From Colwellia sp. 20A7 (lineage in GTDB: Bacteria; Pseudomonadota; Gammaproteobacteria; Enterobacterales; Alteromonadaceae): a DNA stretch of 64,000 nt. The first letter of the stretch is position 1. Every line of letters starts with the position of its first letter. Under the pieces are notes generated by a model. The model was not told where the DNA came from. It saw nothing but the letters and a program-made list of their open reading frames with translations, and ran no database searches. The stretch is from NCBI RefSeq assembly GCF_009832865.1, contig NZ_CP047130.1, positions 4,516,616 to 4,580,615 of the forward strand, in the 5' to 3' direction. Below, piece by piece: positions 4,700 to 42,276 of this stretch. A program made the translations under genes and the position numbers.

Positions 4700-4701
4700 C
4701 C

Positions 4702-5766: not shown

Positions 5767-5776
5767 TCGCAATATA

Positions 5777-25449: not shown

Positions 25450-26064
25450 TTACCAATCAAGCCCTTTTTGCGCCTTTACGCCAGCCTTAAAAGCATGTTT
25501 GATCGGTTGTACTTCTGACACGGTATCAGCCAACTCAATTAAACGACGATGGCAAGCCCGACCAGTAATAATGACGTGTTGCATTTTAGGGCGGTTATTT
25601 AACGCTTCAATAATTTCATCTAACTCAATATAACCATACTTCACCATGTAGGTCATTTCATCAAGTAAAACAATGCTAAGAGTTTCGTCGCTCAGCATTT
25701 CTTTGCTTATTTGCCAAGCCACTTTCGCTGCGGCTATATCAGTTTCTGTGCTTTGTGTTTCCCATGTAAACCCGGTACCCATTACATGATGTTGAACAGG
25801 AAATTGTTTTAGAATGTTCATTTCACCACATTCCCACTTACTGCCTTTAATAAATTGCACCACACCGGCTTTTTGACCATGACCAATAGCGCGCAATACC
25901 GTACCAAAACCTGAGGTACTCTTACCTTTGCCATTACCTGTGATTACCACGAAAACACCACGTTCTTCGGTCGCTTTAGCGACACGTTCGTCGACTTTGG
26001 CTTTAATTTTTTTTTGGCGTTCAATGTGTTTTTGTTCTTTGTCGTTATTAATGATGTCTGTCAT
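25450..26064 (-). CDS. cobO: Cob(I)yrinic acid a,c-diamide adenosyltransferase
   Basis: A 204-residue CobA/BtuR-type ATP:corrinoid adenosyltransferase. The P-loop is GNGKGKST, followed by GVVQFIKGSKWECGEM, and the second signature is LDEMTYMVKYGYI. It adds the 5'-deoxyadenosyl group to reduced corrinoids, either new precursors or salvaged cobinamide and cobalamin. A charged N-terminal extension (about 35 residues) is usual for this type. It is the last gene of the riboswitch-led operon running from 33559 and follows the DUF2149 gene by 49 bp. An AGGAAAC ribosome site precedes the ATG. Confidence 0.95.
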   Translation of the reverse strand: MTDIINNDKEQKHIERQKKIKAKVDERVAKATEERGVFVVITGNGKGKSTSGFGTVLRAIGHGQKAGVVQFIKGSKWECGEMNILKQFPVQHHVMGTGFTWETQSTETDIAAAKVAWQISKEMLSDETLSIVLLDEMTYMVKYGYIELDEIIEALNNRPKMQHVIITGRACHRRLIELADTVSEVQPIKHAFKAGVKAQKGLDW

Positions 26065-26113: not shown

Positions 26114-26443
26114 TTAATCATTACTTATTAGTATTAGCTTTCCAGTTTCTGGATCTTTATATACTTGTCCCATCGACTGGTAACCGGCTTGGCTTTGTAA
26201 CTTATTTTTTAATGCTTCAGGGGTGGATGTCAGTTCTTTACCGACAGAGTCAACGGGTTGAACTTTCTCAACATTTTCTTGTTGATTCACGTCAAAGTGT
26301 TGTGCAATCTCAGGACTTAAAGCCACCAGTGCGGCAATTAGCCCACAAGAAAAAACCAGCATAATATCAATCAAGTTGGCTAAGGGGCCTAAAGGCTCTT
26401 GTTCTTGACTGTCAAATTGGCTACTGCGCCATGAATTACTCAT
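26114..26443 (-). CDS. DUF2149 protein (ExbD-like, single membrane helix)
   Basis: A 109-residue protein with a short cytoplasmic N-terminus and one membrane helix (about 20-43). The helix begins with NLIDIMLVF, where Asp26 is placed like the proton-channel Asp of ExbD/TolR. A periplasmic tail ends in GKLILISND. The start overlaps the stop of the ExbB-like gene by 4 bp (ATGA). With that channel protein and the CobN-like chelatase it forms a conserved triad. The family is uncharacterised biochemically, and the ExbD analogy rests on topology and the Asp. Confidence 0.8.
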   Translation of the reverse strand: MSNSWRSSQFDSQEQEPLGPLANLIDIMLVFSCGLIAALVALSPEIAQHFDVNQQENVEKVQPVDSVGKELTSTPEALKNKLQSQAGYQSMGQVYKDPETGKLILISND

Positions 26444-26889
26444 ACGTTCAGCTCATCGTCTAACTGTTGCATGGCATTGTCATACCAACGTCTACGCATA
26501 CGTCCTAAAACGAAACCCATAACACCGGCAAGTAAACCGATAATGGTGGTATCAAACGCTACTGTCATCGCAGTAGTTAAAATACTAATATCACCCGTTC
26601 CTAATGCAGATAACCCTGGCCCTAACGGAATTAATGTCCCCATTAAGCCCAACATAGGGGCAATACGGGTAATAAAGTCAGCGCGCTCTATCCGTTTTTT
26701 GCCTTGTTTAATTAGCTCTGTTCTTTGCTTGGCCGCCATCAGCGCAGGAATCACTGAAAAACGTTCGCCAATGGCTAAACCAAATTCGTACACGGCTAAT
26801 GCGGTGAAAAATAATAAGCCCCACACTACCGGTTGCAATAACCATGACGTGATTAAATGCATTAACTCTAACGAAAAACCATACAACAT
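26440..26889 (-). CDS. MotA/TolQ/ExbB-family proton channel protein
   Basis: A 149-residue protein with three membrane helices (about 8-30, 70-95, 105-130). The family signature is in the second and third helices: RIAPMLGLMGTLIPLGPGLSALG and AFDTTIIGLLAGVMGFVLGRMRRRW. TolQ/ExbB proteins couple proton flow to motion of partner proteins. It starts 1 bp after the CobN-like gene and overlaps the DUF2149 gene, so all three are made together. It differs from a TonB-type ExbB by its place in a B12 operon and by the absence of a TonB gene here. The target is probably the CobN-like protein; this is inference. Confidence 0.85.
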   Translation of the reverse strand: MLYGFSLELMHLITSWLLQPVVWGLLFFTALAVYEFGLAIGERFSVIPALMAAKQRTELIKQGKKRIERADFITRIAPMLGLMGTLIPLGPGLSALGTGDISILTTAMTVAFDTTIIGLLAGVMGFVLGRMRRRWYDNAMQQLDDELNV

Positions 26890-26890
26890 A

Positions 26891-29800
26891 TTAAGACTCT
26901 ACTTTCGGTAATTGACGACGAGAACGCAGATAACCAGTAAGCACTAACAGTAATAGCACAGCGATCACACCCAACAATAAATAGCGCTGCTCAGATGATT
27001 GTTCGGTATTTGCTTCATCTGAAGCTTTATCAGCTGCTGAGCTTGAACTAGCTTTAGCGTCATCTGTATTTTTTACTTTTAATTCAGTACTAATTTCTTG
27101 AATATGTTGAACCCCAGAAGCAGCATCACCTACTGGCGTATGATTAGCCGCAGCTAATACCTCAGCTAATTGACGATTAACCTCTGCTGACAACATCGGT
27201 TTAATAAAGTCATAAATAGGGTGGTTTGCGTGCGTGTGACCGCTACCTGGAATACCATTTTCTATAATGTTTTTAGCAAATTTTTCGGCCAGTGCTTGTT
27301 GCGTTGATTGATCCGCTTGCCAAAAACCTTTTTCAATCGCCACTAACATCACTGCTAAGATATTACTTTGCACATGCACGTTATGTGCTTGTTGTAAGAA
27401 TTCATCTAAACCAATGTCTAAACTATCATCAATATAGATCGCTTTTAAATCTTCCCATACCCACGAACGAATAATTTCTGGACTTGTTGCTTGCCAACCC
27501 CAAAGGTTCTCAATAAATTCACTGCCCATAGTTCGTGCGCCAGCGTAACCTTGTTTCATTAAGGGCTGGATCCATTGTCGATTAAGAAAGCGTCCGCGCA
27601 GCTCTGACAACAAAGCTGTTTGCAGTGGCTCTATTGACATATTTTTACTGTTTGCATGCGAGATAACAAAACTGTTTGGTTGTTTACCTGCAATCGTTTC
27701 AATGGCTAAATTTAAGCCGCCAAGATAATCATAAGCATCGTTATTATCAATTAAGCCATAAAGGTTACTTGCGCGCCCTAAATACGTATTATTAACATGA
27801 GCTAATTGTTCGCGAAATAAGGATTGAACATTACTGCCCATTTCAACATTCTCATTAGGCACACCATAAGCATGGCTCATACGTTTAATATAAGCGTCGC
27901 CTAATTCTTTTCGCTCTTGCCAAGCACCTGAACGTTCAGCTAAACGGTTAATACCTGCGCCATAAGCGCCGGGCGCCGTTCCAAAAATACGATAACTGGC
28001 TTGACGACCTAACAACTCAGGGCTTATATCGCTATTTGAACGTAATAAGGCTTGCGCTTCACGTAGCCAATTACTGGCAACCATATTACTGGTTAACGGT
28101 TCATCAAAGGCATGCTTTTCATTTTCAATAATATGGTCAACAGGCTTTAACGCGGCGTGCAAAGCCATGATAAGCGCAGGGTGATCGCGTTCAATAGTAT
28201 TTTTACTTGCTGCTAGCGCCAATAAAACCGATCGATCTAGCCATGCTAATTGCTGAGCATATAAATCGCGGAACAATCCTGAGGTTGTAAAAACAATATC
28301 TCTACGTTGAGTACGCTCTTTATCAAGCGGTATCAAGGTTAAAGACTTTAATATGCCTCGACGATTCCATACTGGTTTTACCCCAAGCATGTCCATACCA
28401 AAGGCAATCATAGCGCCTTCGTCACGAACAGCATCAGACGCCCATAAAATAACGGCCTCTTTATGGGTTTTATCGACAATAGGATTTTCAGATCGCGCTT
28501 TACTTGCTAACTGTTGACCGGTAGCAAAACCCAGTTGTGATGGAATTAAGCTACCATCTAAGGCATAAAAGTTACGACCTGTTGGCAGCGCATCAGGTGT
28601 TCTTATCGGGTCATTGCCTTTACCTGGCGCAACAAAACCGCCATTTAAGGCGTTTAAAAAGGCTGACATTTCACTTTTTGGTGATTTAATCAGGTTTTCT
28701 CTAATTTGATTACGCTGAGTATCATTAAAATCTAACTCGCCTTTTTCAATAGATGTCATCATGGTTTCAATGGCATTTTCTTGCCAATCTTTGCCATAAA
28801 TGTGTAAGCCTAATGGCATAAAATCTTCTTGTAACTTAGTTAGGTAATGCCCGACTTCATGCAATAAAAAGTCATCATCAACCTCGCCAAAACCAATACC
28901 ACGTACTTGTAGTTCTTCATCCATACTTGCCACAAGTTCGTCAGTTAAATTTAAGACCTTAATTTTATGACGCAGGGCTTTAATGGCTTTTTTCTTGGTG
29001 TCGATATTCGATGCCGCTTCGGCACTTTCAATTAACTGTCGCAATTGTAATAGACCATCGTACAGCTCTGTGGTTGCTAAAGGCGGAGTTAAGTGATCTA
29101 ACATCACCGCAACACCTCGACGCTTGGCTTGAATACCCTCACCTACGCCATCTACAATATAAGGATAAACACTGGGAATGTTGGCAATGATTAATGACGG
29201 ATAATCACTTGCCGATAAACCTACCGCTCGTTTAGGCAAAAACTCATACGTAGAATGTCGACCTAAATGCACAATAGCATTCGCCTTAAACACATCACGT
29301 AAGTGATAGTAAAATGCTAAATATTGGTGTGGCGGTGGAAATGTCATATTGGCATGCAATAACTCTTCATTAAGCTCCCAACCTCTTGGTGGTTGTGGGC
29401 CTAAAAAGATATTACCAAACTGCACACCGGGTAACAAAATCTCATCATTCCAAACCATGGTTTTACCCGGCACACTACCCCAGCCACGTATGCCTTCAAT
29501 TTGCATATTAAGCAACGCATTTTTAAGTTCTTCGGCTTGGTTAAATTGTTTTGCCAACACAGTGTTGTTTTCAAGTTTCAGCGAAATAATACGCTTATAT
29601 TCTTGTGTAAGCTGCGCCAATAAGTTTAACGCACGGTCACGACCTTTATGTCTTATGCCGTCTAATGCGTGATGTAGATCAATTGAGGTACTTTCTACAT
29701 TGTTGAGTAATGCCGTTAACACTGAACCTTGCTCAATGATGGGGAGCTGCGCTAGTTGCTGTGCGCCTTGTTGAAAAAGGTAAAATTCAATTCTGGCATG

Positions 29801-31393
29801 TAAATAACCCAGTGGCCCATCAACCATTTCAGCTTTAACAATATCAGGTAAGGTATCAAAGTAAGTTTGATACTCTCTGGCCGACATTTTATTGATTAAC
29901 GGTGCCATTTGGTTAAGCGCGCCAGCGTCTTGCGGTAAATTTACCGCTTTTAATTGTAAAAGATCTAACAGTTCATCAGCAGACTTAGGAAAGTCAGCCT
30001 CTGGACCAAGATCATAACCTTGCGCTTTTAATGTTTGTAATATGTGCCATAACGATTGTTGTACATCTAAGTTATCGGCACCAATATTATGACGACCGGG
30101 CGGGTGATTATAATAAACAATAGCGACTTTTTTAGCCGCGTTATCAAGTCTGCTTAAGGCTAACCAAGCATCAACTCGTGCCTGTAAACGTATAACTTCC
30201 TCTGTTAGCACTTCGCTCATTGAAATACTTGCACCCGTTGCTTTATCGAGTTTCTCACTTGACGCTAAGGCGAGAATATGAGGCTGAGAAACACCTTGTA
30301 ACTCAGGCATGGCAACGCGGTAATGTACGGTATCGCTCGGTAACCCGGTGGGTGAAAGCTTATATTCAAGTGCGCTTAATTCGGTCATTCTTATCCCTTT
30401 AAATACAGGGATATTCAATTCATTAAATTTTTGAGTGACAGATTCGCGGCCTTCACCACCGCCAATAACAAAATCTTGCAATGCAATAAGTGCTAACGGT
30501 TGTGTTGATTTAATTTGACGAATAATGTCAATGGCTTGCTCGCTCGATTTACCCCAGCCAGCCAGTACTGATATACACTGCCACTGAGGTTGACATAATT
30601 GTTGATGTAACTGCCATTGCCCAGGTTGATCGCCCGTATCATGATCAACAATGAATACGATGGGTGCACTTTGATTTTCAGCGATTTTTTTGTTTAATTG
30701 CGTCTCGTTAATGAGCTGCTCTTGCCAATAGAAACGAATAGGTTGCAGAGGTAAAACACGCTTTGCCTGATCTATTAATGTTTTGCTACTTGGTGTTACG
30801 TTTGTAAGCGTATTTACTTTCAGCCACTTAAATAATTCTCCTAGGTTTTCTTTACCTTTATTTTGCCAATAAGCTCGCGCTTGTAGCCAAGCAGCAAACT
30901 GTGGCCACTGTGTTTGCTTTAGAGTAAGTGCTTGCAAGTAATTATCTTTATCAATTGAAGCCATTAAATCTTGTACTTGTTTACTGGCCAGCGCCGCAAC
31001 ATTACCACCTTGTGCATCGTTATGTAGCACCATTAAACGTCTATCGGTATTCAATACCCACCGCGTTTGCTTGTTTTCATAAGTTAATGCTAATAACCGC
31101 TCTACGGATTCACCAAATACGCCAGCAATAATTAACCCTTGATGTTGATTAATTAACTGCTGTATTTCTGTGTTTGTTAGTTGATTCAATTGACTAACAC
31201 TGCGAATGCTAACACCAGTAGTGAACGCTTGATTTTCCAATGCTTGATTATCTAAAAACTGGTGAGCGCCCGCAACAATGGTTGCTGCGGATCGATCTGA
31301 AACAAACGCCAATAATTTAGTTTCTTTGGCATTTGACATAAAACTGCTAAGCAAGGCAATGAATAAGAAGCTAATAAGGCAATAATATTTCAT
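26891..31393 (-). CDS. cobN: CobN-like cobalto/magnesium chelatase subunit, secreted and membrane-anchored
   Basis: A 1500-residue protein of the CobN/BchH family. Family motifs are clear: GRHSTYEFLPKRAVGLSASDY, EGIQAKRRGVAVMLDHLTPP, and FGTAPGAYGAGINRLAERSG. Unlike cytosolic CobN it begins with a signal peptide (MKYYCLISFLFIALLSSFMSNA). It ends with a Ser/Ala-rich linker, one membrane helix (YLLLGVIAVLLLLVLTGYL) and a basic tail. The large domain should therefore face the periplasm, tethered to the inner membrane. I place the start at the ATG at 31393, six bases after GAGA. No CobS/CobT-chelatase ATPase subunits are present. The next two genes encode ExbB-like and DUF2149 proteins, as next to HmuS-type CobN homologues in heme-uptake operons of Bacteroidota. 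A role in periplasmic corrinoid or cobalt handling is inferred. Confidence 0.85.
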   Translation of the reverse strand: MKYYCLISFLFIALLSSFMSNAKETKLLAFVSDRSAATIVAGAHQFLDNQALENQAFTTGVSIRSVSQLNQLTNTEIQQLINQHQGLIIAGVFGESVERLLALTYENKQTRWVLNTDRRLMVLHNDAQGGNVAALASKQVQDLMASIDKDNYLQALTLKQTQWPQFAAWLQARAYWQNKGKENLGELFKWLKVNTLTNVTPSSKTLIDQAKRVLPLQPIRFYWQEQLINETQLNKKIAENQSAPIVFIVDHDTGDQPGQWQLHQQLCQPQWQCISVLAGWGKSSEQAIDIIRQIKSTQPLALIALQDFVIGGGEGRESVTQKFNELNIPVFKGIRMTELSALEYKLSPTGLPSDTVHYRVAMPELQGVSQPHILALASSEKLDKATGASISMSEVLTEEVIRLQARVDAWLALSRLDNAAKKVAIVYYNHPPGRHNIGADNLDVQQSLWHILQTLKAQGYDLGPEADFPKSADELLDLLQLKAVNLPQDAGALNQMAPLINKMSAREYQTYFDTLPDIVKAEMVDGPLGYLHARIEFYLFQQGAQQLAQLPIIEQGSVLTALLNNVESTSIDLHHALDGIRHKGRDRALNLLAQLTQEYKRIISLKLENNTVLAKQFNQAEELKNALLNMQIEGIRGWGSVPGKTMVWNDEILLPGVQFGNIFLGPQPPRGWELNEELLHANMTFPPPHQYLAFYYHLRDVFKANAIVHLGRHSTYEFLPKRAVGLSASDYPSLIIANIPSVYPYIVDGVGEGIQAKRRGVAVMLDHLTPPLATTELYDGLLQLRQLIESAEAASNIDTKKKAIKALRHKIKVLNLTDELVASMDEELQVRGIGFGEVDDDFLLHEVGHYLTKLQEDFMPLGLHIYGKDWQENAIETMMTSIEKGELDFNDTQRNQIRENLIKSPKSEMSAFLNALNGGFVAPGKGNDPIRTPDALPTGRNFYALDGSLIPSQLGFATGQQLASKARSENPIVDKTHKEAVILWASDAVRDEGAMIAFGMDMLGVKPVWNRRGILKSLTLIPLDKERTQRRDIVFTTSGLFRDLYAQQLAWLDRSVLLALAASKNTIERDHPALIMALHAALKPVDHIIENEKHAFDEPLTSNMVASNWLREAQALLRSNSDISPELLGRQASYRIFGTAPGAYGAGINRLAERSGAWQERKELGDAYIKRMSHAYGVPNENVEMGSNVQSLFREQLAHVNNTYLGRASNLYGLIDNNDAYDYLGGLNLAIETIAGKQPNSFVISHANSKNMSIEPLQTALLSELRGRFLNRQWIQPLMKQGYAGARTMGSEFIENLWGWQATSPEIIRSWVWEDLKAIYIDDSLDIGLDEFLQQAHNVHVQSNILAVMLVAIEKGFWQADQSTQQALAEKFAKNIIENGIPGSGHTHANHPIYDFIKPMLSAEVNRQLAEVLAAANHTPVGDAASGVQHIQEISTELKVKNTDDAKASSSSAADKASDEANTEQSSEQRYLLLGVIAVLLLLVLTGYLRSRRQLPKVES

Positions 31394-31498: not shown

Positions 31499-32917
31499 CT
31501 ATAAATAACGGGTTTTATCAAAAATACGTAATGATAACGTTGGATTACTCGGTAAATACCAATGCATATATGACGCAAGAATATTGTTATGTTGATAAAC
31601 AAACTCACCTGCTCGTTCACTGGGGTGATGCGTTGTTTGATAACTAGGTACTAATTCAACATCAGCACTGGAGTAATGAAAGCTATGACCTCGCATTCTA
31701 TTGTTAATCGATATATCTTCAGAAACGTTGCTTTTATCTTGCGCAAAAGAGGGTAAATCAACCCATTGAGAGCCTATTGCAGCAAGCTTTTTCTGCATTA
31801 CCGCTTTGCCTGGTACAAGCCCAAGCATAGAGAACTCTTGCCCTGACATATCCGTTAGTTGATCAAGCAAATACAACATCCCCCCACATTCAGCAACAAT
31901 AGGTTTATTACTTGCGGCAAAGTCTCTTACATCACTAATAAAAGATATATTATTCATTAGCTGTTCAGCATAAAGCTCTGGATAGCCACCCGGAATATAT
32001 AAAATATCGCCTTCAGGCAAGTGAGCATCCGCAATGGCTGAACAATAAACCAGCTCGGCTCCAGCTTGTTCTAAAAATGAAATGTTGGCCGCATAAATAA
32101 AACTAAAAGCATTATCTTTTATAATAATAATGCGTGTGCCTGCGAGCGCCTGTTTAGTTATAACGTCTTTATCACTCTGGCTTGCAACGCTAAAGAACTC
32201 TACTTCGGCTGGTAAATCAGCTAAGCCGGTATTGCCGATATGGCTTGCCGCTTTATCTAACTGAGCATCAATATCACTGAGCTCTTGTGCGAGCACTAAA
32301 CCTAAGTGACGCGCTGGCAGGGTAATAACATCATCTTTAGGGATACGGCCAAAAAATCGAAACTCTTCTGGTAAACAGGTGCTTATCAGCTCAACATGAC
32401 GATCGGTATTAACGCGATTGGCAATAACGCCGGCAAAAGGGAGATTTTTTCTAAATGTTGCCAAACCGTAAGTAACAGCCGCGAATGTTTGTGCCATTGC
32501 TTTCGCGTCAATCACGCCAAGTACTGGTATATTAAAATATTCGGCTAAGTCGGCACTACTCGGTGTGCCATCAAACAGTCCCATAACGCCTTCAATTAAA
32601 ATAAGATCAGATTCCATCGCAGCACGATGCAATAGCGCTTGGCAGCCTTCCTCACCTACTAACCATAGATCTAATTGATACACCAATTCACCACTGGCTT
32701 GTCGTAAAATCATTGGATCAATAAAATCAGGGCCTACTTTAAACACCGTTACCTTACGACCTTGATCTCTATGGTAACGGGCAATAGCCGCTGTAACCGT
32801 GGTTTTACCTGAGCCAGAATGAGGTGCAGCAACAATCAATGCTGGGCACATAACGCCACTGCCTGCTTTATGCTCTACCTGCTTTTGAAAAGGAAGTGTT
32901 TTATTGTCTACTGCCAT
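31499..32917 (-). CDS. cobB: Cobyrinic acid a,c-diamide synthase
   Basis: A 472-residue glutamine-dependent amidotransferase. The N-terminal dethiobiotin-synthetase-like domain has P-loop PHSGSGKTTV, then KVGPDFIDP and LIEGVMGLFDG. The C-terminal class I glutaminase domain has the nucleophile Cys in VAECGGMLYLLD. The His near the C-terminus in SYMHWYLPSNP completes the site. It amidates the a and c side chains of the corrin ring with ATP and glutamine. It is the second gene of the riboswitch-led operon. The N-terminal 22 residues before CPALIVAAPHSG are not conserved, but the ATG at 32917 is the best start. Confidence 0.94.
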   Translation of the reverse strand: MAVDNKTLPFQKQVEHKAGSGVMCPALIVAAPHSGSGKTTVTAAIARYHRDQGRKVTVFKVGPDFIDPMILRQASGELVYQLDLWLVGEEGCQALLHRAAMESDLILIEGVMGLFDGTPSSADLAEYFNIPVLGVIDAKAMAQTFAAVTYGLATFRKNLPFAGVIANRVNTDRHVELISTCLPEEFRFFGRIPKDDVITLPARHLGLVLAQELSDIDAQLDKAASHIGNTGLADLPAEVEFFSVASQSDKDVITKQALAGTRIIIIKDNAFSFIYAANISFLEQAGAELVYCSAIADAHLPEGDILYIPGGYPELYAEQLMNNISFISDVRDFAASNKPIVAECGGMLYLLDQLTDMSGQEFSMLGLVPGKAVMQKKLAAIGSQWVDLPSFAQDKSNVSEDISINNRMRGHSFHYSSADVELVPSYQTTHHPSERAGEFVYQHNNILASYMHWYLPSNPTLSLRIFDKTRYL

Positions 32918-32944: not shown

Positions 32945-33559
32945 TTAGTGGTTATTATTACGAGTAATAGCATTAGTATTTATCGCTTTATCGGTAAAGA
33001 AGTGACTGATTGTAAAATCAATTACGATAGCCGAGATAACATAGAAGATAGGATTAGAAATCGATTTAAAATAATATTTCTCAACACGAGTTGCGTATTC
33101 TACCCATGATAAATTAGGGAAATTACCTGAGAATGCATAATAACTACCATTTGAGATAAAGAAAGCAACCGAGCTAGCAATAAATAGGCTTAACGCAACT
33201 TTAATAACATTATTTTGCCAAGCACTCGTTTGCCAATTAGGTTTAGTATAAAAACCGGCAGTAAACATAACAGCATAACTAAACACTAATGCTGGATAAG
33301 AGGTCGTGATGCAATCACCAAATTGTCCTCGATAATAAGAGGAAGCAAGATCGATAGTGACCGACAGAATATAGAAAACCCAGAACATTTTAATGTTACG
33401 TAAATACATTCCTGCTAAGAAGAAGATAGCAATTGAGGCACTAGGCAAATGATTAAAACTAGAAAAATGATGTGTTCGTGTAGCAAGCATTAACAATACT
33501 AATACTGAAAATACGGCAATAAGTATATTCAAAGGGGCTTTTTGATCAGTTGATTTCAT
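32945..33559 (-). CDS. DUF6580-like membrane protein, predicted corrinoid-linked transporter
   Basis: A 204-residue protein with about five membrane helices (about 10-27, 40-57, 60-77, 90-105, 115-135) and a final helix near 165-185. The motif FNHLPSASIAIFFLAGMYLRN resembles DUF6580 and the S-components of ECF vitamin transporters. It is the first gene behind a cobalamin riboswitch and precedes cobB, which strongly links it to corrinoid or precursor uptake. The substrate cannot be told from sequence. A GAGAACG ribosome site precedes the ATG. Confidence 0.65.
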   Translation of the reverse strand: MKSTDQKAPLNILIAVFSVLVLLMLATRTHHFSSFNHLPSASIAIFFLAGMYLRNIKMFWVFYILSVTIDLASSYYRGQFGDCITTSYPALVFSYAVMFTAGFYTKPNWQTSAWQNNVIKVALSLFIASSVAFFISNGSYYAFSGNFPNLSWVEYATRVEKYYFKSISNPIFYVISAIVIDFTISHFFTDKAINTNAITRNNNH

Positions 33560-33849
33560 AACGTTCTCATTAAATAAATAGTTATTTAACGGTGTAGGAA
33601 ATCAAAGGCAGTAGATGATAAAAAGACTATTTAACTCTGTAAGCGTAATCGATTTAGCCTATTTTCATAGATAATCGGCACGAATGAGAGGTAATCAAGA
33701 CTTCACGCTGCCATTTAGGAAATGTTAACTAAATTCAGCACATATACTTATCTCTGAATCACCGCCCACCGCAGTTGTCGAGTATGCCTATTTATAGTAG
33801 AAAACATCTATAAAACGCTATAAACACTTAATAAATGAAAATAAATAGG
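33560..33849 (-). other. Long leader between the cobalamin riboswitch and the first gene
   Basis: No gene is seen. A 9-bp inverted repeat, CCTATTTAT (33787-33795) and ATAAATAGG (33841-33849), directly follows the B12 box on the minus strand and may be part of the expression platform. No clear U-tract terminator is visible, so control may be at translation or by Rho. Confidence 0.4.
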
Positions 33850-34034
33850 GTTGATTAGGCCGGTCTCCGGACTTCTGATCATTGCATTTGCAACACCTTC
33901 CCATACAGCACTAACGTAATATTCTACTTAGCGACTCAATACAGTGGTTTTGTTGCTGCTCACAGTTACCGTTGCGGGGGCAGTACTGGTATTTCACCAG
34001 TTTCACGTTTCACCTTCATGGCATTATTGTGTGA
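33850..34034 (-). ncRNA. Cobalamin riboswitch 1 (leader of the DUF6580-cobB-cobN operon)
   Basis: On the minus strand the conserved parts occur in order: GAAGGTGAAACGTGAAACTGG, then GTACTGCCCCCGCAACGGTAA (about 33966-33990), then TATGGGAAGGTG, and finally the B12 box AGTCCGGAGACCGGCC (33858-33877). This matches the AdoCbl aptamer core. B12 binding normally reduces expression of the downstream operon. Confidence 0.92.
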
Positions 34035-34294
34035 TAAATCACCAGAGACGATAAATCAATCGAATAATGTTTGAAGACACCTAAATCTGCGCAAATAATA
34101 CGTGATGGCCTCAAGTTATTCAACAACTAACACAGCTAAATGGCAAGCAGTGCTACCCACATTTACAGTTGAGAATATTTGCATTGAACCTGAGCATTGA
34201 TTTAGTTACGCTACGCGCCCTTTAAAATTATGATAAAACGTTAAGGTCTGTTGACCTTTCGCGGTTAAATTTTGTTATTTAGTATTAAAAATCA
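34035..34294. other. Intergenic region between the riboswitch and the cobC-like gene
   Basis: No gene is seen. It contains the promoter for riboswitch 1 (minus) and that of the plus-strand cobC-like/cbiB/cobD genes. A hairpin AAGGTC-TGTT-GACCTT sits at 34243-34258, 37 bp before the ATG. No second aptamer is visible on the plus strand. Confidence 0.4.
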
Positions 34295-34888
34295 ATGAAC
34301 ACACACTTATATTTAGCCCGCCATGGTCAAACACAATGGAATGCAGTGCATCGCTATCAAGGTCAATTAGATAGCGAATTAACACCGTTGGGTAAAGCGC
34401 AATCGAAACAGCTTGCACAATTGGTTGCTAATAAAAAAATAGACACTATTATTTCGTCTTCTCTTGGGCGCGCGATGAGCACCGCCATGATTTGCCAACA
34501 GAAGTTGAACGTTCCTGTTATTAACTTAGAAGCGATTACCGAGCGAAATTTAGGCCGCTGGCAAGGGCAATATGTCAATGATATTAAAACTGAAAAACAT
34601 TTTGACGAAATATTACATCAATATACGGCATTGCAACCCACCGATGGCGAAAGTGCGATAGATTGCGGAACACGTATTGATAATGCCCTGCAACGATTAG
34701 CAAAAAAACATATCAATAAAAACTTATTAGTGATCTTTCATGGTGAAGCGTTACGTTGTTTTTTAGCAAAGCTAGGTCAACAGTCAACGCGCAATGCTTA
34801 TGAATTATTCGACAATGGCTCTACCTTTCATTTAACGTATAATCATGACAATAAAAACTTTCAATGTGAAACGTTAACAACGAAGTAA
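34295..34888 (+). CDS. Histidine phosphatase family protein (alpha-ribazole phosphatase-like)
   Basis: A 197-residue branch-1 histidine phosphatase. The catalytic motif is LARHGQTQWN with His10. GRAMSTAMIC and TERNLGRWQGQ follow, and the second His is in VIFHGEALRCFL. Related enzymes remove phosphate from alpha-ribazole-5'-phosphate or from adenosylcobalamin-5'-phosphate (CobC). It begins a plus-strand unit with cbiB and cobD, 7 bp before cbiB, which supports a cobalamin role. A second histidine phosphatase closes the cobQUST cluster at 43422, so one of the two may have another substrate. Confidence 0.85.
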   Translation: MNTHLYLARHGQTQWNAVHRYQGQLDSELTPLGKAQSKQLAQLVANKKIDTIISSSLGRAMSTAMICQQKLNVPVINLEAITERNLGRWQGQYVNDIKTEKHFDEILHQYTALQPTDGESAIDCGTRIDNALQRLAKKHINKNLLVIFHGEALRCFLAKLGQQSTRNAYELFDNGSTFHLTYNHDNKNFQCETLTTK

Positions 34889-34895
34889 ATTAACC

Positions 34896-35942
34896 ATGTT
34901 GTGGATAGAAAATATAATCGGCCAAGCCATGTTATTAGCGCCTTATTTCGCTACAACTCTTACAATTTTATTGGCTTTACTGCTTGATAAAACATTAGGC
35001 GAAGCTAAACATTATCATTACCTTGTGGGCTTTGGTTGGCTTGCAGACAAAATAGAATTGGCGCTTAATGCAAACTCCTCTCCTGATAAGTTAAAAAATT
35101 ATTTTCAAAGTATGGCTCAGGCTAATCAGCAACAATCTACTCTAAGAATTAAACTATTAGGCACCTTTGCTTGGTGCTTACTTGTACTACCTCTGCCGAC
35201 CTTTTATTTTTTGTTTATGAATGATTTAGTCTGGTATTGGCAGATATTACTCGATGCCTGTGTACTTTATTTAGCGATTGGCCTCAATAGCTTACATCAG
35301 CATGCTATGCAGATTTACCTCCCATTAAAAGCAGGTAAAATAGAGCAAGCACGACATTTTACCGGTTATATTGTGAGTAGAGAAACTAGCGCACTTTCAC
35401 CACAAGCAATGTCGAGGGCAACGGTTGAGTCTATGCTCGAAAATGGCCATGATTCGGTTATCGCCTCTATGGTTTATTATATTATCGGCGGCGCGCCATT
35501 GGTTATTTTACATCGCTTCGCTAACACGCTCGATGCTATGTGGGGCTACAAAAATACTCGTTTCAATGACTTTGGTTATGCCAGCGCCAAGCTTGATGAC
35601 TTATTAGGTTTTTTTTCAGGAAAGGTTTGTACGCTACTGTATGCAATACAAGGTAATATTAAACAATCGGTTATCAATGCTTATCAGCAAGGTAATCAAT
35701 ATAAAAGCCACAATGGTGGTTGGGTGATGGCGGCTGGCGCTACCGTGATGAAAATAACACTCGGCGGCAATGCCTTGTATCATGGTAAAACCGTTACTTC
35801 ACCAACCTTAGGTTTAGGAAGATCGGTCAGCATAGACGACATGCCACGCAGTATCACATTAGTAAAACGGGCTGCGATCCTGTTAGTTTTTTTTGTGCTT
35901 ATCTTGCAATTGAGCTGTTATTTTAGTTACCACGATAGCTAA
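34896..35942 (+). CDS. cbiB: Adenosylcobinamide-phosphate synthase
   Basis: A 348-residue membrane protein of the CbiB/CobD family. It condenses adenosylcobyric acid with aminopropanol phosphate. Family motifs are LDKTLGEAKHYHYLVGFGWL at the N-terminus, then GYIVSRETSALSPQAMSRAT and VESMLENGHDSVIASMVYYIIGG; NTLDAMWGYKN and GRSVSIDDMPRSI follow. It has four or five membrane segments. It is followed after 36 bp by the decarboxylase gene that supplies its substrate. Confidence 0.92.
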   Translation: MLWIENIIGQAMLLAPYFATTLTILLALLLDKTLGEAKHYHYLVGFGWLADKIELALNANSSPDKLKNYFQSMAQANQQQSTLRIKLLGTFAWCLLVLPLPTFYFLFMNDLVWYWQILLDACVLYLAIGLNSLHQHAMQIYLPLKAGKIEQARHFTGYIVSRETSALSPQAMSRATVESMLENGHDSVIASMVYYIIGGAPLVILHRFANTLDAMWGYKNTRFNDFGYASAKLDDLLGFFSGKVCTLLYAIQGNIKQSVINAYQQGNQYKSHNGGWVMAAGATVMKITLGGNALYHGKTVTSPTLGLGRSVSIDDMPRSITLVKRAAILLVFFVLILQLSCYFSYHDS

Positions 35943-35978
35943 CGCTATATTTAAATTTATTACTTTTAGGGAAAACTT

Positions 35979-37055
35979 TTGGCTCTTATTCACGGTGGAC
36001 AATTACAGCGAGTGGCGAAACAATTTAACATTGCCCCTGAAAACTGGTTAGATTTATCTACCGGTATAGCCCCACTTAGCTATCCTATTCCATCAATACC
36101 TGAACAGTTGTACCAAGTATTACCTCAACCCAATAGTGCGTTAGAAACTGCCGCCAAAGGTTATTACAACACTAACAGCTTACTAATCACTAACGGTAGC
36201 CAAGCGATAATAAAGCTCTTACCGACGTTATGGCATGAAGAAAATAAACATTCAACAACGGTTTATTTACCTGAGCAAGGCTATAAAGAACATGCCTTAG
36301 CGTGGCAAACAGCCGGTTTTATAGTGTGTTGGTATCAAGACACTTTACCTGAAATTACCGAGATTAAAGAAAATTCGGTGTTGGTGGTGATTAATCCAAA
36401 TAATCCAACCGGACAGCTCTATCAAAAAGCAACGTTGCTCAGCTATCAACAAAAATTAGCGCAAAGTAATGGTTTATTCGTTATTGATGAAGCCTTTATT
36501 GACGTAATTGAGCCGGCGCAATCAATGGCTAATATAAGCATTAGCAACAGCGACAAAAACACCTTGATATTACGCTCATTTGGCAAGTTTTTTGGTTTAG
36601 CTGGAATTCGTATTGGTTTTTTAATCGGTAACGACGATTGGTTAGCAAGGTTTAGTGATCACCTTGGTCCTTGGCAAGTTAATGGCCCGGCACAGTTTAT
36701 TGCGCAAAAAGCCCTAGAAGATAAACACTGGCAAAGGCAGCAACAACAAACCCTAAAAACGTTAAGCAGCCAGTTACAGACATTACTCACTGAAAATTTA
36801 CCCATGCAACAAATAACGACAATATCTGGCACTGCTCTATTTCAAACGGTTTATTTTAAAGCAGGTAGAGACGATACAAGCCTTGAGAATAAAAACATTG
36901 ATGGCAAAAAAAGTGCTGAAAATTACTATATTGCGTTATGCAAACAAGGGGTTTATGTAAGACTGACGGATGATAAGTGTGCATTGCGGTTTGGTATACC
37001 AAAAGCAGAAGATTTTGAACGACTCGCTAACGCTTTAGCGAATATAAAAAATTAA
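35979..37055 (+). CDS. cobD: Threonine-phosphate decarboxylase, PLP-dependent
   Basis: A 358-residue class I/II aminotransferase-fold enzyme that makes aminopropanol phosphate for the CbiB step. Motifs: HGGQLQRVAKQF near the start, WLDLSTGIAPLSYP, INPNNPTGQLY, DEAFIDV, and the PLP Lys in LRSFGKFFGLAGIRIGF, with the phosphate-binding Arg in CALRFGIP. The start is TTG at 35979, with AGGGA seven bases upstream. Two nomenclatures exist: this enzyme is CobD in Salmonella and CobC in Pseudomonas. A strong shared terminator follows. Confidence 0.93.
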   Translation: MALIHGGQLQRVAKQFNIAPENWLDLSTGIAPLSYPIPSIPEQLYQVLPQPNSALETAAKGYYNTNSLLITNGSQAIIKLLPTLWHEENKHSTTVYLPEQGYKEHALAWQTAGFIVCWYQDTLPEITEIKENSVLVVINPNNPTGQLYQKATLLSYQQKLAQSNGLFVIDEAFIDVIEPAQSMANISISNSDKNTLILRSFGKFFGLAGIRIGFLIGNDDWLARFSDHLGPWQVNGPAQFIAQKALEDKHWQRQQQQTLKTLSSQLQTLLTENLPMQQITTISGTALFQTVYFKAGRDDTSLENKNIDGKKSAENYYIALCKQGVYVRLTDDKCALRFGIPKAEDFERLANALANIKN

Positions 37056-37172: not shown

Positions 37173-39062
37173 TTAAAAAGTATAAGTACCTGTTAATTGA
37201 AAGTTAACACCGTCAGTCAGGTAATCTTCAGCAACCCTATATTCTTCGTCAAAAAGGTTATTGACTTTACCGACAATAGAAAAGTCCTCTGACACTTGGT
37301 AACCTACTGAAATATTAGTTAAAAGTTCTGATTGCAAGGTAACGGTGTTTTTATTATCTTCACTTCTACCTCTAAAATCAAAGACAATATTCGTAGTAAA
37401 ATCACCAATTTGATAACCCAAAGTATAGGTTACGGTAACTTTTGGACGACGCAATAATGCTTTACCTGTTAACTTGTTTTCTGCTTCTACATAAGCCGCC
37501 GCGACTAAATGAGAAAGCTCTCCCGTTTGTAATGAAACCGTTAAATCAACACCTTTAGCGGTAGCAAGATCGACATTAGCTGGCTGCCAATCACCGTCAG
37601 CATTGGGTGCCCATGCAATTAGGTTTTCTATTTCAGTATCATAGAAACTTAACTCAACACTGCCATTATTAAATTGATTACGCACAAGTATTTCTGAGCT
37701 CTCTACTTTTTCAGGCTTTAACAATGGATTACCCGAACCAGGCCAATATAAGTCATTAAATGTTGGCGCTTTAAAGCCCGTACCTTTACTTAAACTTAAT
37801 AACCAGTCGTCATTGAATTGATAACCTGCTGAAAGGTTGTAAGTAACTTCTTTGTCTAAGCCATCAATATCGTCTTGACGCACCGCGCCTTCAAATAAAA
37901 ATTGACCTTCGTGATGACGAGCTTGAACAAATACAGCTGATGCTTTTCGCGCATTTACCTCATAGTCAGAGCTAGTATTTGAAACACGCTCTTTATACCA
38001 ATCGAAACCACCTGTAAGGTTTGTTTTATCATTTAATTGATACTGGGCAAACAAACCAAATTGGTCTCGTTTCGTGGTGATTTCACTAACTACTTTTGGT
38101 GTAGTATTACTTTTGAATGAACCACCTTGGTCTTGCGACTTAGCAAATGAGGTTTCAATTGCAAGTTTATCCGCGTTATAAGCGCCACCTAGTTTAACTG
38201 AATAATTTTCATATTCATTTTCATCTGAGCCAGCCGATTTACTGTCGTAATCTGAACCGCCTTTTTCATAATGAGAAACTAAATCAAGGGTATATTCTTT
38301 GGATAATTTACTTTGACCATTAACACTAAAAGATTGACGATCATAACCATCATCATCTTCTTGGCCAGCATGTTCTGTTGCGTTAAAGCCATCACTTTCT
38401 TCTAAAGCGGCAGCAATAGTCAATGAATTATCTTCATCACCAAGACCGATAGCCGCTTCTGTTTTCCAGTAACCATTACTACCGATACCAGCAGTAACAA
38501 ACCCTTCTTTGGAATTAAGCTTTTTAGTAAAAATTTGAATCACACCGCCAATAGCATCAGATCCCCAAAGCGCACCTCGAGGGCCTTTTACCACTTCAAT
38601 ACGTTCAATTAAAGCAACAGACATTGAAGAGAAACTCGTGCTACCTGTTGTTGCAGAGCCAATACGAACGCCATCAACTAATACCAGAGTATGATTACTA
38701 TTAGTACCACGCATAAATACAGAAGAAGATTGACCTGCCCCGCCTAAATTAGCAACAGTAACCCCTGCCACGGTATTAAGTAGTTCAGTAACATTTTGCG
38801 GTTGGATCGCTTCAATTTCAGCGCGACCGATAACCACAGTTGCTGAAAGTGATAAAAACTGTTCTTGTTGAGTTCGATTTGCCGTAACAACAATGTTTTC
38901 TATGTCAGCACTTTTTTCAGTAACGGTATTAGCGACTGAACTTGATGCTGCAGAAAATAATACTGACGTTACAGCAATTTGAGTAAGTGTTTTCTTGAAC
39001 TGTGCTTTCTTAAGCTGTGTTTTCTTAAACTGTATTTTCTTAAATAATGTTTTTGCTTTCAT
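37173..39062 (-). CDS. btuB: TonB-dependent vitamin B12 receptor
   Basis: A 629-residue outer-membrane receptor. A long basic N-terminal stretch made of a repeated KKxQxKK unit leads into a signal peptide (LTQIAVTSVLFSAASSSVAN). The TonB box IENIVVTANRT, the plug (LLNTVAGVTVANLGG, VFMRGTNSNHTLVLVDGVRIG, VVKGPRGALWGSDAIGGVI) and a barrel ending in aromatic Phe follow. It imports corrinoids across the outer membrane. A riboswitch precedes it, and cobQ lies upstream on the same strand. BtuCDF is not in the window, so the inner-membrane importer is elsewhere or is supplied by the DUF6580-like protein. Confidence 0.93.
   Translation of the reverse strand: MKAKTLFKKIQFKKTQLKKAQFKKTLTQIAVTSVLFSAASSSVANTVTEKSADIENIVVTANRTQQEQFLSLSATVVIGRAEIEAIQPQNVTELLNTVAGVTVANLGGAGQSSSVFMRGTNSNHTLVLVDGVRIGSATTGSTSFSSMSVALIERIEVVKGPRGALWGSDAIGGVIQIFTKKLNSKEGFVTAGIGSNGYWKTEAAIGLGDEDNSLTIAAALEESDGFNATEHAGQEDDDGYDRQSFSVNGQSKLSKEYTLDLVSHYEKGGSDYDSKSAGSDENEYENYSVKLGGAYNADKLAIETSFAKSQDQGGSFKSNTTPKVVSEITTKRDQFGLFAQYQLNDKTNLTGGFDWYKERVSNTSSDYEVNARKASAVFVQARHHEGQFLFEGAVRQDDIDGLDKEVTYNLSAGYQFNDDWLLSLSKGTGFKAPTFNDLYWPGSGNPLLKPEKVESSEILVRNQFNNGSVELSFYDTEIENLIAWAPNADGDWQPANVDLATAKGVDLTVSLQTGELSHLVAAAYVEAENKLTGKALLRRPKVTVTYTLGYQIGDFTTNIVFDFRGRSEDNKNTVTLQSELLTNISVGYQVSEDFSIVGKVNNLFDEEYRVAEDYLTDGVNFQLTGTYTF
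38993..39052 (-). repeat. Four tandem 15-bp repeats inside btuB
   Basis: Units at 38993-39007, 39008-39022, 39023-39037 and 39038-39052 follow the pattern TCTTAAACTGTATTT with a few changes. They are in frame and encode KK-x-Q-x residues in the region just before the signal peptide. Loss or gain of a unit would keep the frame. Confidence 0.75.
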
Positions 39063-39094
39063 ATTACCTCGCTCTATGACGCCCGCCGCATCAT

Positions 39095-39262
39095 GTTGAT
39101 CATTGAGCTATGTATTTTTAGCTCAATGATAATTAAGTAAGTACAAGGTATCGGACTTAAACTTATCGTAACTGCGATAAGTTATTACCGTTGCGGGGGC
39201 AGTACTTAATTCTCATAAGTTTCCCTCGTTTCTTACTATAATAAAGTGGAAGTATTTCCACC
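39095..39262 (-). ncRNA. Cobalamin riboswitch 2 (btuB leader), with expression-platform hairpin
   Basis: On the minus strand, GAGGGAAACTTATGAGAATT is followed by GTACTGCCCCCGCAACGGTAA (about 39182-39204) and a B12 box that has drifted to AGTCCGATACCTTG (about 39142-39156). The core equals that of riboswitch 1. A 12-bp hairpin (39099-39110 with 39119-39130) lies after the aptamer. No U-tract follows it, which suggests control of the btuB ribosome site (GAGGTAATATG) rather than termination. Confidence 0.85.
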
Positions 39263-39274
39263 CTTGAATCTATT

Positions 39275-39300
39275 TATACCAAATCAATTAAATTGGTATA
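39275..39300. repeat. Palindrome TATACCAA-N10-TTGGTATA, like one end of the 163-bp repeat
   Basis: A perfect 8-bp stem around ATCAATTAAA. ATACCAAATCAATTAAATT matches the left end of repeat copy B (ATACCAATTCTATTAAATT) with few differences. It could be a solo repeat end or a terminator-like hairpin between cobQ and btuB. Confidence 0.45.
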
Positions 39301-39356
39301 ATACACTTAACGAAGCGTATTAATTCTTATAAATTTCATGTTGATAGTGAAGGCAG

Positions 39357-40865
39357 TTATAGGGTGTTGCCAGTGGTAACACCCGCTTTTAAAATTTGTT
39401 CAATATCGTCCATATGCAAGTATTGCTCGCATATCCCAGCTAAACGTTCTAATTGAGTTTCTCTATGTTGATTAATATCAATAACAGACTGTACGCCATG
39501 ATCTTGTTTAACCCACTGCAATATCGCGCTGGTTACTGCTCCGTGATCAAAAATGCCATGTAAATAGGTTGCTACAATTTGATTATCTGTTGAGATAAAG
39601 CCATCTGTACTTAGCGCACCTACAGACAAATCACTTATTAAAGGTTTTTTAAGTGCTTCACCTTGTGAATGACCACAATGAATTTCATAGCCCAAAACCT
39701 CACAAGAAGCGCCAGCTAGGGTGAATGTGCCAGAAACCTGTGTTAAGGTTTTTTCTGCGGTTAGCGTCGTGGTAAAGTCAGCTAATCCTAAGCCTGAAAT
39801 AGCTCTTTCGCCATTTTCTTCAGCTGTTGATTCAATCGCAAGTGGATCCAATATTTTATTACCTAGCATTTGAAATCCACCACAAATACCGAGCACTTTA
39901 CCGCCATATCTTAAATGACGATTAATATCCTCTTGCCAGCCTTGAGCTTTTAAAAAGGCTAAGTCTGAAATCACATTTTTACTGCCCGGTAAAATAACTA
40001 AATCGCAATTGTCTATCCGTTCACCCATTTTGACATAACGTAAATCTATTTCAGGGTTTAACCTTAATGGGTCAAAATCAGTATGATTACTAATATGTGG
40101 CAATAGAGGTACCGCAATAGAAATTTTACTTTGAGTCACTTTATTATCAAGAGCAATAGCATCTTCAGCATCAAGCGCTAAATCATGCAAATAAGGTAAA
40201 ACACCTAAAACAGGCTTACCAGTACGTTCTTCAAGCCAAGTTAAACCTGATTCTAGTAACTTAATATCACCGCGAAAACGATTAATAATAAAGCCTTTTA
40301 CCCGTGCTTGTTCTGACGCTGACAATAACGCTAGCGTCCCTACTAAATGAGCAAAAACACCACCACGATCAATATCAGCGACCAAAATAACAGGACAATC
40401 TACTTTTTCAGCGTAGCCCATATTGGCAATATCATGTTCACGTAAATTAATTTCAGCCGGACTACCTGCACCTTCCACCATTAACACATCAAACTCTTGT
40501 GCAAGCCGGTAATGTGATTCAACCACTGCATTCATCGCCACTTTTTTATAATCGTGATAACTGGTCGCTTCCATATTTGAAAGCGCCTTACCGTGTACAA
40601 TAACTTGCGCACCAGTATCACTATTTGGCTTTAATAAAATAGGGTTAAAATCAACACGCGGTGCAATATTAGCAGCAATAGCTTGTAATGCTTGTGCTCG
40701 TCCAATTTCGCCGCCATCTTCTGTTACAGCACTATTTAGCGCCATATTTTGAGGTTTAAAAGGCGCAACACTAAAACCTCTATTAACAAAAACACGACAA
40801 AGCCCTGCCACTACCGTACTTTTTCCCGCATCAGAAGTAGTGCCTTGTATCATTAAAGTTTTCAT
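39357..40865 (-). CDS. cobQ: Cobyric acid synthase (glutamine-hydrolysing)
   Basis: A 502-residue amidotransferase that amidates the b, d, e and g side chains of adenosylcobyrinic acid a,c-diamide. The N-terminal P-loop domain has [19 protein letters not shown], followed by KPQNMALNS and [11 protein letters not shown]. The C-terminal glutaminase domain has the nucleophile Cys in [12 protein letters not shown] and the His in YLHGIFDH. It is the last gene of cobC-cobT-cobS-cobU-cobQ and overlaps cobU by 4 bp. The length is normal for the family. Confidence 0.95.
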
Positions 40866-41434
40866 TTGTGCTCCTTTGGCTTAAGCGATAGAGGAATACC
40901 TGCCATAATAAAATCGACTCGTTCAGCTATTACGGCGATTTCTTGATGTAACCAACCCGCTTGATCAACAAAATTTCGTGAAAGCTCTCCTATAGGTACA
41001 ATGCCATGACCAACTTCATTACTAACAAGCAGTAAATGCACCTCACTTGATTGTGCATAATGAGATAAAGTTTTAAGTAACGCTTGTTTTTCTTGTTGAA
41101 AACAATCTTTTTCAGATGAACATAAGCAATTTGTTAACCATAAAGTAAGGCAATCAACTAATATTGTTATCCCATGTTTGTGTTCGCTGTTATGTTTTTT
41201 TACTAACTGCTCAATCGCTTTGGCTAGTTCAATAGATGATTCAATTAACAACCAATGAGCAGGTCTTTGTTGTTGGTGTTGCTTGATACGCGCTAACATT
41301 TCACCATCTAACGGCTGAGCTGTTGCTAGATAATAAACCTGTGACTGAGTGTTACTTTCAAGGAGCTTAGCTTGCTTTTCGGCAAATGAACTTTTACCAG
41401 AGCGAGCACCGCCTAAAATCAAATGAACAGACAT
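40862..41434 (-). CDS. cobU: Adenosylcobinamide kinase / GTP:adenosylcobinamide-phosphate guanylyltransferase
   Basis: A 190-residue bifunctional enzyme with Walker [16 protein letters not shown] at the start. [13 protein letters not shown] and the conserved [19 protein letters not shown] complete the signature, including the Glu-Val-Gly-His motif. It phosphorylates adenosylcobinamide and then attaches GMP. It overlaps cobQ by 4 bp and cobS by 1 bp, so the genes are translationally coupled. Confidence 0.95.
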
Positions 41435-42249
41435 TAACTAATAACTCCTGAACTTGTACTTAACATGACATCACCATAGCCAAACACCAATAACGTTAAA
41501 TAAATAACAATTTCGCTACTTTGCTGAGCTGCGCCTAAACAATCACCGGTATAACCACTAAGTTGCTTATTAAACCAAAATGCTAATAAAGCTCTAAAAA
41601 TAAATAAAATAACGAACAATAAAATACATTCACCCAAAGGAAGAAACCATAAACTCACTATCAATCCAGTGGCAAACAACGCCATTAAACTTGTGTTCGA
41701 TAAATGCTGAGCTAGCGGTTTGACTTTTGAGGTAGCATCAAGGGAGACATAAGACATATCGTAAATTAAACTGGTGGCAACTACACGACTCAAGGTGTTT
41801 GCTAAAATGAGCGCAATAAGAGGCGATGCAAACGCCATTAAACTTTGATATTTTAGAAATAAAATAATAAATAACGCTGCTGCACCATAAGTTCCTAAGC
41901 GACTATCTTTCATAATATTCAGTTTTTGCTCAATGCTCCAACCACCACCAAAGCCATCCCAAACATCTGCCCAGCCATCTTCATGAAAAGCGCCGGTTAC
42001 TAATAAACTAGCAGCCATAGCAATAAGCACAGCAATTTCTTTTGGTAAATATTCCACGGAAGCAGCATAAATTAAAGAACAAAGGATACCAACCATAAGA
42101 CCAACTACAGCAAAGTAGCGACTAGATTGATTAAGTTGCTCTGCACTAATTTCAGCAGGTAATCGAACAGGTATGCGCGTGAAAAAACTAACGGCCAATA
42201 ACAATAGTGTTAATTGAGGTTTTATTTTCTGTTGTAAATTTTGAGTCAT
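41434..42249 (-). CDS. cobS: Adenosylcobinamide-GDP ribazoletransferase (cobalamin synthase)
   Basis: A 271-residue inner-membrane enzyme with about seven helices. It joins alpha-ribazole to adenosylcobinamide-GDP. The family motifs are SFFTRIPVRLP at the start, AFHEDGWADVWDGFGGG with the acidic metal site, KDSRLGTYGAAALFI, and SGYTGDCLGAAQQSSEI near the end. It sits between cobT and cobU. Confidence 0.95.
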   Translation of the reverse strand: MTQNLQQKIKPQLTLLLLAVSFFTRIPVRLPAEISAEQLNQSSRYFAVVGLMVGILCSLIYAASVEYLPKEIAVLIAMAASLLVTGAFHEDGWADVWDGFGGGWSIEQKLNIMKDSRLGTYGAAALFIILFLKYQSLMAFASPLIALILANTLSRVVATSLIYDMSYVSLDATSKVKPLAQHLSNTSLMALFATGLIVSLWFLPLGECILLFVILFIFRALLAFWFNKQLSGYTGDCLGAAQQSSEIVIYLTLLVFGYGDVMLSTSSGVIS

Positions 42250-42276
42250 TTTATGCTCGAGCTTATGCGATAAACG

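Follow-up and report, generated by a model that had tools for sequence, protein, structure and literature searches.

Proteins of the CobN superfamily are known as the large subunits of the cobaltochelatase CobNST and the magnesium chelatase ChlHID, which act in the cytosol and are driven by ATP through AAA+ partners. In the accessible part of a 2021 review, these soluble class I chelatases are described as using ATP, perhaps for corrin distortion and proton abstraction (PMC7689651). A different arrangement is found in the hmuYRSTUV operon of Bacteroidota, in which HmuS (also BtuS, a name from a 2003 source as cited in the available text of PMC6460266) is an anchored periplasmic CobN relative encoded beside the ExbB-like HmuU and the DUF2149 protein HmuV. 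The available portions of PMC9431628 and PMC4542158 describe a comparable set in Pseudomonas aeruginosa, PA1922-PA1925, with a TonB receptor, a CobN-like protein, a proton channel protein annotated as ExbD and a DUF2149 protein; this set is Zur-regulated, and we liken it by description, not by sequence. Here, we analyzed a 64,000-nucleotide stretch of the genome of the marine bacterium Colwellia sp. 20A7 (NZ_CP047130.1, positions 4,516,616 to 4,580,615; hereafter the window), in which genes for a CobN-superfamily protein, an ExbB-like protein and a DUF2149 protein sit within a cobalamin-riboswitch gene set alongside CbiA and CobO. We propose, with a probability of roughly 0.45, that this trio encodes a chelatase in the periplasm that is powered by ion flow and most likely inserts cobalt into a metal-free corrin. 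The locus shares with CobNST and ChlHID the large-subunit family, the invariant histidine and the gene order CbiA-CobN-CobO, but its genome yields no CobT match and no strong ChlI or ChlD match. In contrast to the hmu operon, it carries a cobalamin riboswitch and corrinoid genes and has neither HmuY nor HmuR. Like the ExbB-ExbD and TolQ-TolR motors, it combines a PF01618 channel protein with a one-helix, aspartate-bearing partner; however, DUF2149 stands in place of ExbD, and the driven protein would be an enzyme rather than TonB or TolA.

All genes of the set lie on the minus strand. Downstream of the riboswitch (33841..34059; Rfam RF00174, 76.7 bits, cut-off 31.5) follow a membrane-protein-like frame of 204 residues without a Pfam family (32945..33559), the cobyrinic/hydrogenobyrinic acid a,c-diamide synthase CbiA/CobB (31499..32917; NF002204, 423 bits, cut-off 254), CobN (26891..31393), the ExbB/TolQ-like protein of the proton-channel family (26440..26889, 149 residues), the DUF2149 protein (26114..26443, 109 residues) and the corrinoid adenosyltransferase CobO/BtuR (25450..26064; NF004637, 281.6 bits, cut-off 185), which starts 49 bp downstream of the DUF2149 gene. 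A single base separates the CobN stop codon TAA from the ATG of the ExbB-like gene, which in turn overlaps the DUF2149 gene by four bases (ATGA). Coordinates and profile matches thus agree with the original prediction, made from the sequence alone, of a gene triad with a 1-bp gap and a 4-bp overlap in a B12 riboswitch operon. For CobN we use the ATG at 31393; a TTG at 31438 lies in the same frame. Judging from this layout, CobN is likely co-transcribed with the riboswitch, with the caveat that a 7-bp hairpin followed by U8 lies immediately 5' of its ATG (window 31390-31430, minus strand; z -2.35), a possible attenuator separating CbiA from CobN.

To place the window protein, we surveyed 369 gammaproteobacterial genomes, of which 41 contain CobN-superfamily genes; DUF2149 scored above its cut-off in 20 genomes, all of them among these 41. 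The proteins fall into three classes. Class A is soluble (CobN and BchH) and is the sole kind in 21 genomes; five class A proteins are BchH-like and group with ChlH in the tree. Class B is anchored and groups with HmuS and archaeal proteins, and class C, found in 12 genomes, is the anchored kind to which the window protein belongs. A tree of 69 proteins, built by a quick search under LG+G4 with many rows of odd composition and a root drawn at the midpoint, puts soluble and anchored proteins on opposite sides of one branch (Shimodaira-Hasegawa-like approximate likelihood ratio test, SH-aLRT, 98) and unites class C in a single clade (100) beside the remaining anchored proteins (92). By sequence, the window protein is therefore a member of a separate, mostly B12-linked clade: a cobalamin riboswitch lies near 10 of the 12 class C loci and near none of the eight class B loci opened (of nine), and CobO and CbiA occur in 9/12 and 7/12 class C loci, respectively.

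The window protein matches the family model PF02514 (777 bits, cut-off 24.5) and scores below the NCBIfam CobN equivalog cut-off (best 624.9 against 1619; TIGR02257, 505 against 822). Its N-terminus is signal-like (MKYYCLISFLFIALLSSFMSNA), and a hydropathy peak of 2.58 near the C-terminus is followed by a tail rich in lysine and arginine. Topology was judged from hydropathy and positive-inside tails. All class C (12/12) and class B (7/7) proteins inspected have a C-terminal hydrophobic helix, which is missing from all 19 class A proteins whose end is intact, and the tail holds more K/R than D/E in all 45 anchored proteins; this C-terminal score alone separates the classes, which a crude N-terminal hydropathy score fails to do. 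The window CobN accordingly appears to lie outside the inner membrane, anchored by its C-terminus, and these signals favor the exported, anchored protein that had been predicted. The active-site histidine and a nearby glutamate (H728 and E732 of the window protein in TTG numbering) are invariant in all 11 aligned class C proteins, and the histidine matching HmuS His538 is shared by all aligned proteins of classes A, B and C and by 16/18 archaeal proteins. At the position of HmuS His1209, the window protein has an aspartate, as do class C throughout (11/11), most of class A (12/18) and 6/8 of class B; three of four Bacteroidota proteins have histidine there. The best PDB match of the window protein is 9d26. 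The tree and this aspartate led us to reject the window CobN as an orthologue of HmuS; the likeness to anchored relatives holds, with class C as a clade of its own.

The two small proteins were assigned by profile. The ExbB-like protein is recognized by PF01618 (38.8 bits, cut-off 22.9) and matches E. coli ExbB/TolQ plus one more ExbB in hhalign (probability 91.9); the assignment is based on these two results, not on helix prediction. The DUF2149 protein matches PF09919 (46.1 bits, cut-off 27.1). The ExbD-like aspartate previously proposed in its NLIDIMLVF motif (codon 26368-26366) proved to be acidic in all 34 aligned DUF2149 sequences (Asp in 33, Glu in one). An AlphaFold2 model predicts one confident helix around this residue (residues 19-42, predicted local distance difference test, pLDDT, about 91-93) and little else, being too uncertain outside the helix to support a fold search (overall pLDDT 67.7, predicted template modelling score 0.32). 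PDB searches with both proteins returned nothing informative.

Strong ChlI/ChlD-type matches set the soluble-only genomes apart from the anchored ones. A ChlI/ChlD-type AAA+ match to TIGR02442 of at least 277 bits, a threshold of our own (one of the 41 genomes exceeds the curated value of 779), occurs in 20 of the 21 soluble-only genomes and in none of the 20 anchored ones (Fisher p 8e-11), and the distribution of DUF2149 across the 41 genomes is the reverse of this match. The soluble-only exception, G195, is 58% complete; the best TIGR02442 score in anchored genomes, 48 bits, was taken for MoxR/VWA-type background. TIGR02442 misses CobS/CobT, and the CobT family PF06213 was found in 7/41 genomes, including the class C genomes G143, G089 and, below the cut-off, G140, of which the first two were inspected more closely. 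Among the 20 anchored genomes, 17 thus have no match to either type of partner, G143 departs from this pattern, and G089 and G140 are ambiguous. A motif scan for CobW gave a weak signal, in 4 of 22 stretches of the soluble set (L047, counted here, in fact belongs to class B) and in one of 15 class C stretches, where it was spurious. The Colwellia genome itself, a single complete contig, contains no CobT match (PF06213; CobS alone was not searched for) and no strong ChlI/ChlD-type match (best TIGR02442 score 36.7 bits), which extends to the whole genome the earlier observation that the window encodes no CobS/CobT partner.

The ExbB-DUF2149 pair, by contrast, travels with anchored CobN. All 12 class C genomes have the order CobN, ExbB, DUF2149, with an extra frame between ExbB and DUF2149 in G140. 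In the archaeal phylum containing a Halococcus genome, DUF2149 is present in 101/344 genomes, and 18 of 20 loci opened, picked mostly from the top of the list of positive genomes, contain ExbB, DUF2149 and anchored CobN together, mostly adjacent; the two without a visible CobN are L216 and L220, the latter at a contig end. Four haloarchaeal genomes with soluble CobN contain no DUF2149. No archaeal name appeared among the 120 matches listed in a protein search with DUF2149. On plasmids, DUF2149 was found in 11 records (10 opened), 10 of them with a CobN match nearby, the exception being Paracoccus alcaliphilus; class C DUF2149 was absent from the plasmid records searched. Across 45 loci, pairwise distances correlate between CobN and ExbB (r 0.80), CobN and DUF2149 (r 0.66) and ExbB and DUF2149 (r 0.78), with none of 999 permutations as high, a pattern that shared descent alone could produce. 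These data support the previously suggested dedicated ExbB/DUF2149 pair in a B12 context.

We infer complex formation, ion drive, substrate and direction as follows. CobN, the ExbB-like protein and the DUF2149 protein would form one inner-membrane complex. The C-terminal helix would tether CobN, whose body would lie in the periplasm, and next to this helix the two small proteins would make an ion channel of the ExbB/ExbD type. The passage of ions along the DUF2149 aspartate would take over the work of the AAA+ ring (CobST, ChlID), distorting the corrin and letting the metal enter. The Colwellia genome contains no precorrin-8X mutase CbiC/CobH (PF02570), so that it probably does not make corrin rings; in such a salvager, the complex would most likely insert cobalt into scavenged metal-free or incomplete corrinoids, and CbiA, CobO and the late genes would finish the cobalt-loaded products. 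Of the earlier idea of metal or corrinoid remodelling for B12 salvage, the B12 context thus stands, and remodelling appears less likely than cobalt insertion because the aspartate is typical of most soluble CobN proteins and three relatives encode a late-insertion corrin operon, described below.

Several points weigh against this proposal. The likeness of DUF2149 to ExbD is weak in hhalign (probability 9.8), with 18 helix columns in which the aspartates align; because it is confined to the helix, we use "ExbD-like" as an analogy. Two class C loci of one genus have no cobalamin riboswitch nearby. The diamide substrate usual for CobN is made in the cytosol, so corrin producers would need an export step. 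In the abstract of PMC12583661, B. thetaiotaomicron HmuS is described as a dechelatase that depends on NADH, and the pair goes unmentioned. For heme at least, ion drive would therefore be dispensable; for this reason, the ion motor may raise efficiency or set direction rather than be strictly needed. Finally, the class C genome G143 contains an adjacent CobS-CobT-like pair (TIGR01650, 492 bits, cut-off 558.6; TIGR01651, 335 bits, cut-off 759), distant from CobN as the contigs stand, so that ATP could be the driving force in this genome, provided that topology permits it, and G089 has a single protein with both a CobT domain (49.5 bits) and a VWA domain beside DUF3150, with no match to TIGR01651. 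The G143 pair, together with the canonical step order given by CobN between CbiA and CobO, is what would be predicted if the chelatase were driven by ATP through AAA+ partners encoded at other loci, or if CobN were simply a normal subunit in the cytosol. We consider this highly improbable in view of the signal-like N-terminus, the anchor and a complete genome without CobT or a strong ChlI/ChlD match; a cytosolic CobN is disfavored by the same signals and missing partners.

The literature offers another objection. In the accessible text of PMC10100974, HmuU and HmuV are assigned to powering the TonB receptor, and species patterns with HmuU/HmuV and no detected HmuS comprise 981 and 337 species; the available part of PMC12583661 likewise assigns the pair to the receptor. 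Applied to the window, this would mean that the pair supplies energy to TonB and to BtuB, in line with its published role at HmuR, and that CobN acts alone. TonB receptors do lie near many of the bacterial loci, and a TonB gene accompanies BtuB at two class C loci, at one of which it lies between BtuB and CobN. The same trio, however, occurs in the archaea described above, in which an outer membrane is absent and the pair can therefore not be a TonB energizer alone. Furthermore, the trio of Trichlorobacter adjoins a separate, complete exbB-exbD-tonB set, a Comamonadaceae plasmid locus has no TonB receptor annotated within 17 kb (in an incomplete gene table), and BtuB of the window forms a separate riboswitch unit. 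We therefore regard the receptor explanation as unlikely; the archaeal loci weaken the link to a different receptor system that the original prediction had itself named as a counter-case. The text available for PMC13227078 states that effects of HmuT, HmuU and HmuV on HmuS activity cannot be excluded, and the plasmid CobN of Trichlorobacter was noted earlier to lack CobS/CobT, its role being left open in the part of PMC3403914 available. In a literature search with most subscription papers outside its coverage and sources seen partly in excerpt, we found no proposal of ion-driven metal chemistry or of periplasmic cobalt insertion.

If the trio acts on corrinoids, it need not insert metal. HmuS sets a precedent for a demetallase that strips metal from corrinoids or another chelate for harvest, and relatives of the trio occur in heme, Zur-regulated and hydrogenase-gene contexts. 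Removal of cobalt from a corrin is chemically very hard, however, free cobalt brings no gain of B12 without ring synthesis, and the HmuS histidine is replaced by aspartate, which together make this role clearly improbable. A cobalt-supply enzyme for the cell's own synthesis is disfavored here, as the genome has no CbiC. Somewhat different is a corrinoid-binding or membrane-transfer machine without metal chemistry. The available part of PMC12583661 likens the head and neck domains of CobN to periplasmic binding proteins, and most class C genomes have no ring marker (CbiC is absent from 9/12), both of which would suit such a machine; the invariant catalytic histidine and glutamate and the BtuC-like (FecCD) permeases near the trio in 5/12 class C genomes speak against it, and we hold it to be quite unlikely. 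A replacement of BtuFCD is disfavored by these same permease genes.

The case for cobalt insertion is strengthened by the three class C genomes that do contain CbiC (G089, G121 and G236). In G236, whose ExbB-like protein is identical to one named from Thiohalorhabdus denitrificans, the riboswitch is followed by CobN, ExbB, DUF2149, CobO, CbiA, CobA, CbiD, an ATP-binding cassette (ABC) ATPase, an ABC-2 permease and CobG, and then by CobH, CobI, CobJ, CobL, CobM, a BtuB-like receptor, BtuF-, BtuC- and BtuD-like genes and CobU. CobG (323 bits, cut-off 234.8) is the precorrin-3B synthase of the late-insertion pathway. Since the reductase CobK was not identified in the G236 operon, a candidate frame giving no family match, we term this corrin operon nearly full. 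G121 has the same gene order where compared, and G089 has the core of the operon, with no BtuF or BtuC match in the stretch examined; the search for CobG in the order of G121 covered three genomes, not a wide class C sample. The ABC-2 permease occurs in the stretches of these three class C genomes only (3/12). None of the three contains CbiX or CbiK (CysG-type chelatases, which might allow early insertion, were not searched for), a second CobN or a strong TIGR02442 match, and G121 and G236 have no CobT match (PF06213). The exported CobN is thus the sole cobaltochelatase large subunit found in them. Because the usual CobN substrate is cytosolic, we tentatively suggest that these relatives export metal-free corrin via the ABC-2 transporter encoded between CbiD and CobG, that CobN inserts cobalt in the periplasm on ExbB/DUF2149 ion flow, and that the cobalt corrin returns via the BtuFCD-like importer. 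Coupled with this route is the broader suggestion that the CobN superfamily divides into a cytosolic half that runs on ATP and an extracytoplasmic half, extending across bacteria and archaea, that runs on an ion gradient; that both hold jointly seems to us rather doubtful.

If true, the proposal would describe an enzyme in which an ion-gradient motor, rather than ATP, powers metal insertion, and one step of B12 synthesis or salvage would take place in the periplasm. DUF2149 would thereby gain a function, and HmuU/HmuV a role other than the published one. The proposal would also hint at what the so far unexplained CobN homologues of archaea have in common, and it would account for B12 production by bacteria that have CobG and lack a soluble chelatase.

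The Colwellia genome encodes two CobN proteins. The second copy has its own ExbB and DUF2149 and lies in a locus (L056, C1:1512000-1531900) with a TonB receptor, an HmuY-family protein, ExbB, DUF2149 and CobN, which by gene content is an hmu-like locus in a gammaproteobacterium. Around the trio, the window contains further corrinoid genes. The plus strand carries genes for a CobC-like phosphatase, a CbiB-like protein and CobD (34295..37055), with CobD scoring above its cut-off and the CobC and CbiB models below theirs. On the minus strand, profile matches identify a BtuB-like TonB receptor with its own riboswitch upstream (39267-39130) and, beyond it, CobQ, CobU, CobS and CobT (DBI_PRT; 37173..43329 in total). 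According to these annotations, BtuB, CobQ, CobU, CobS and CobT, with the plus-strand CobC-like, CbiB-like and CobD genes, complete the late corrinoid pathway. The named relatives of the 204-residue protein, among the best 120 of 170, come from Colwellia and kin, and a distant relative (29%) lies between BtuB and CobN in G140. At 3944-4105 of the window, minus strand, the C-terminal half of a DUF2149 gene of the class B type persists in decayed form (35.6 bits), next to genes resembling a two-component system and a TonB receptor that extends past the left end of the window (read by eye); it is probably the remnant of a lost locus.

Variants of the trio were seen elsewhere. In L061 of genome G143 (4847-6064 and 3960-4856), the class C trio is followed by CbiZ and a carbon-nitrogen hydrolase, which suggests a variant for corrinoid side-chain recycling; no cobalamin riboswitch lies nearby, and the CobS-CobT-like pair of this genome is on another contig. 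In L065 (13126-15676), the class C trio is followed by a thiamine pyrophosphate riboswitch and by a frame that resembles a receptor and groups with TonB receptors in clustering. On a plasmid of Runella slithyformis (L085), a TonB receptor, a "urease accessory protein", ExbB, DUF2149 and CobN lie amid hydrogenase maturation (hyp) genes, suggesting a nickel-related version. Among the archaeal loci, L202, L206 and L208 contain very long anchored CobN frames (1861-2487 residues, stop to stop), accompanied in L202 and L206 by a second CobN-like frame in tandem.

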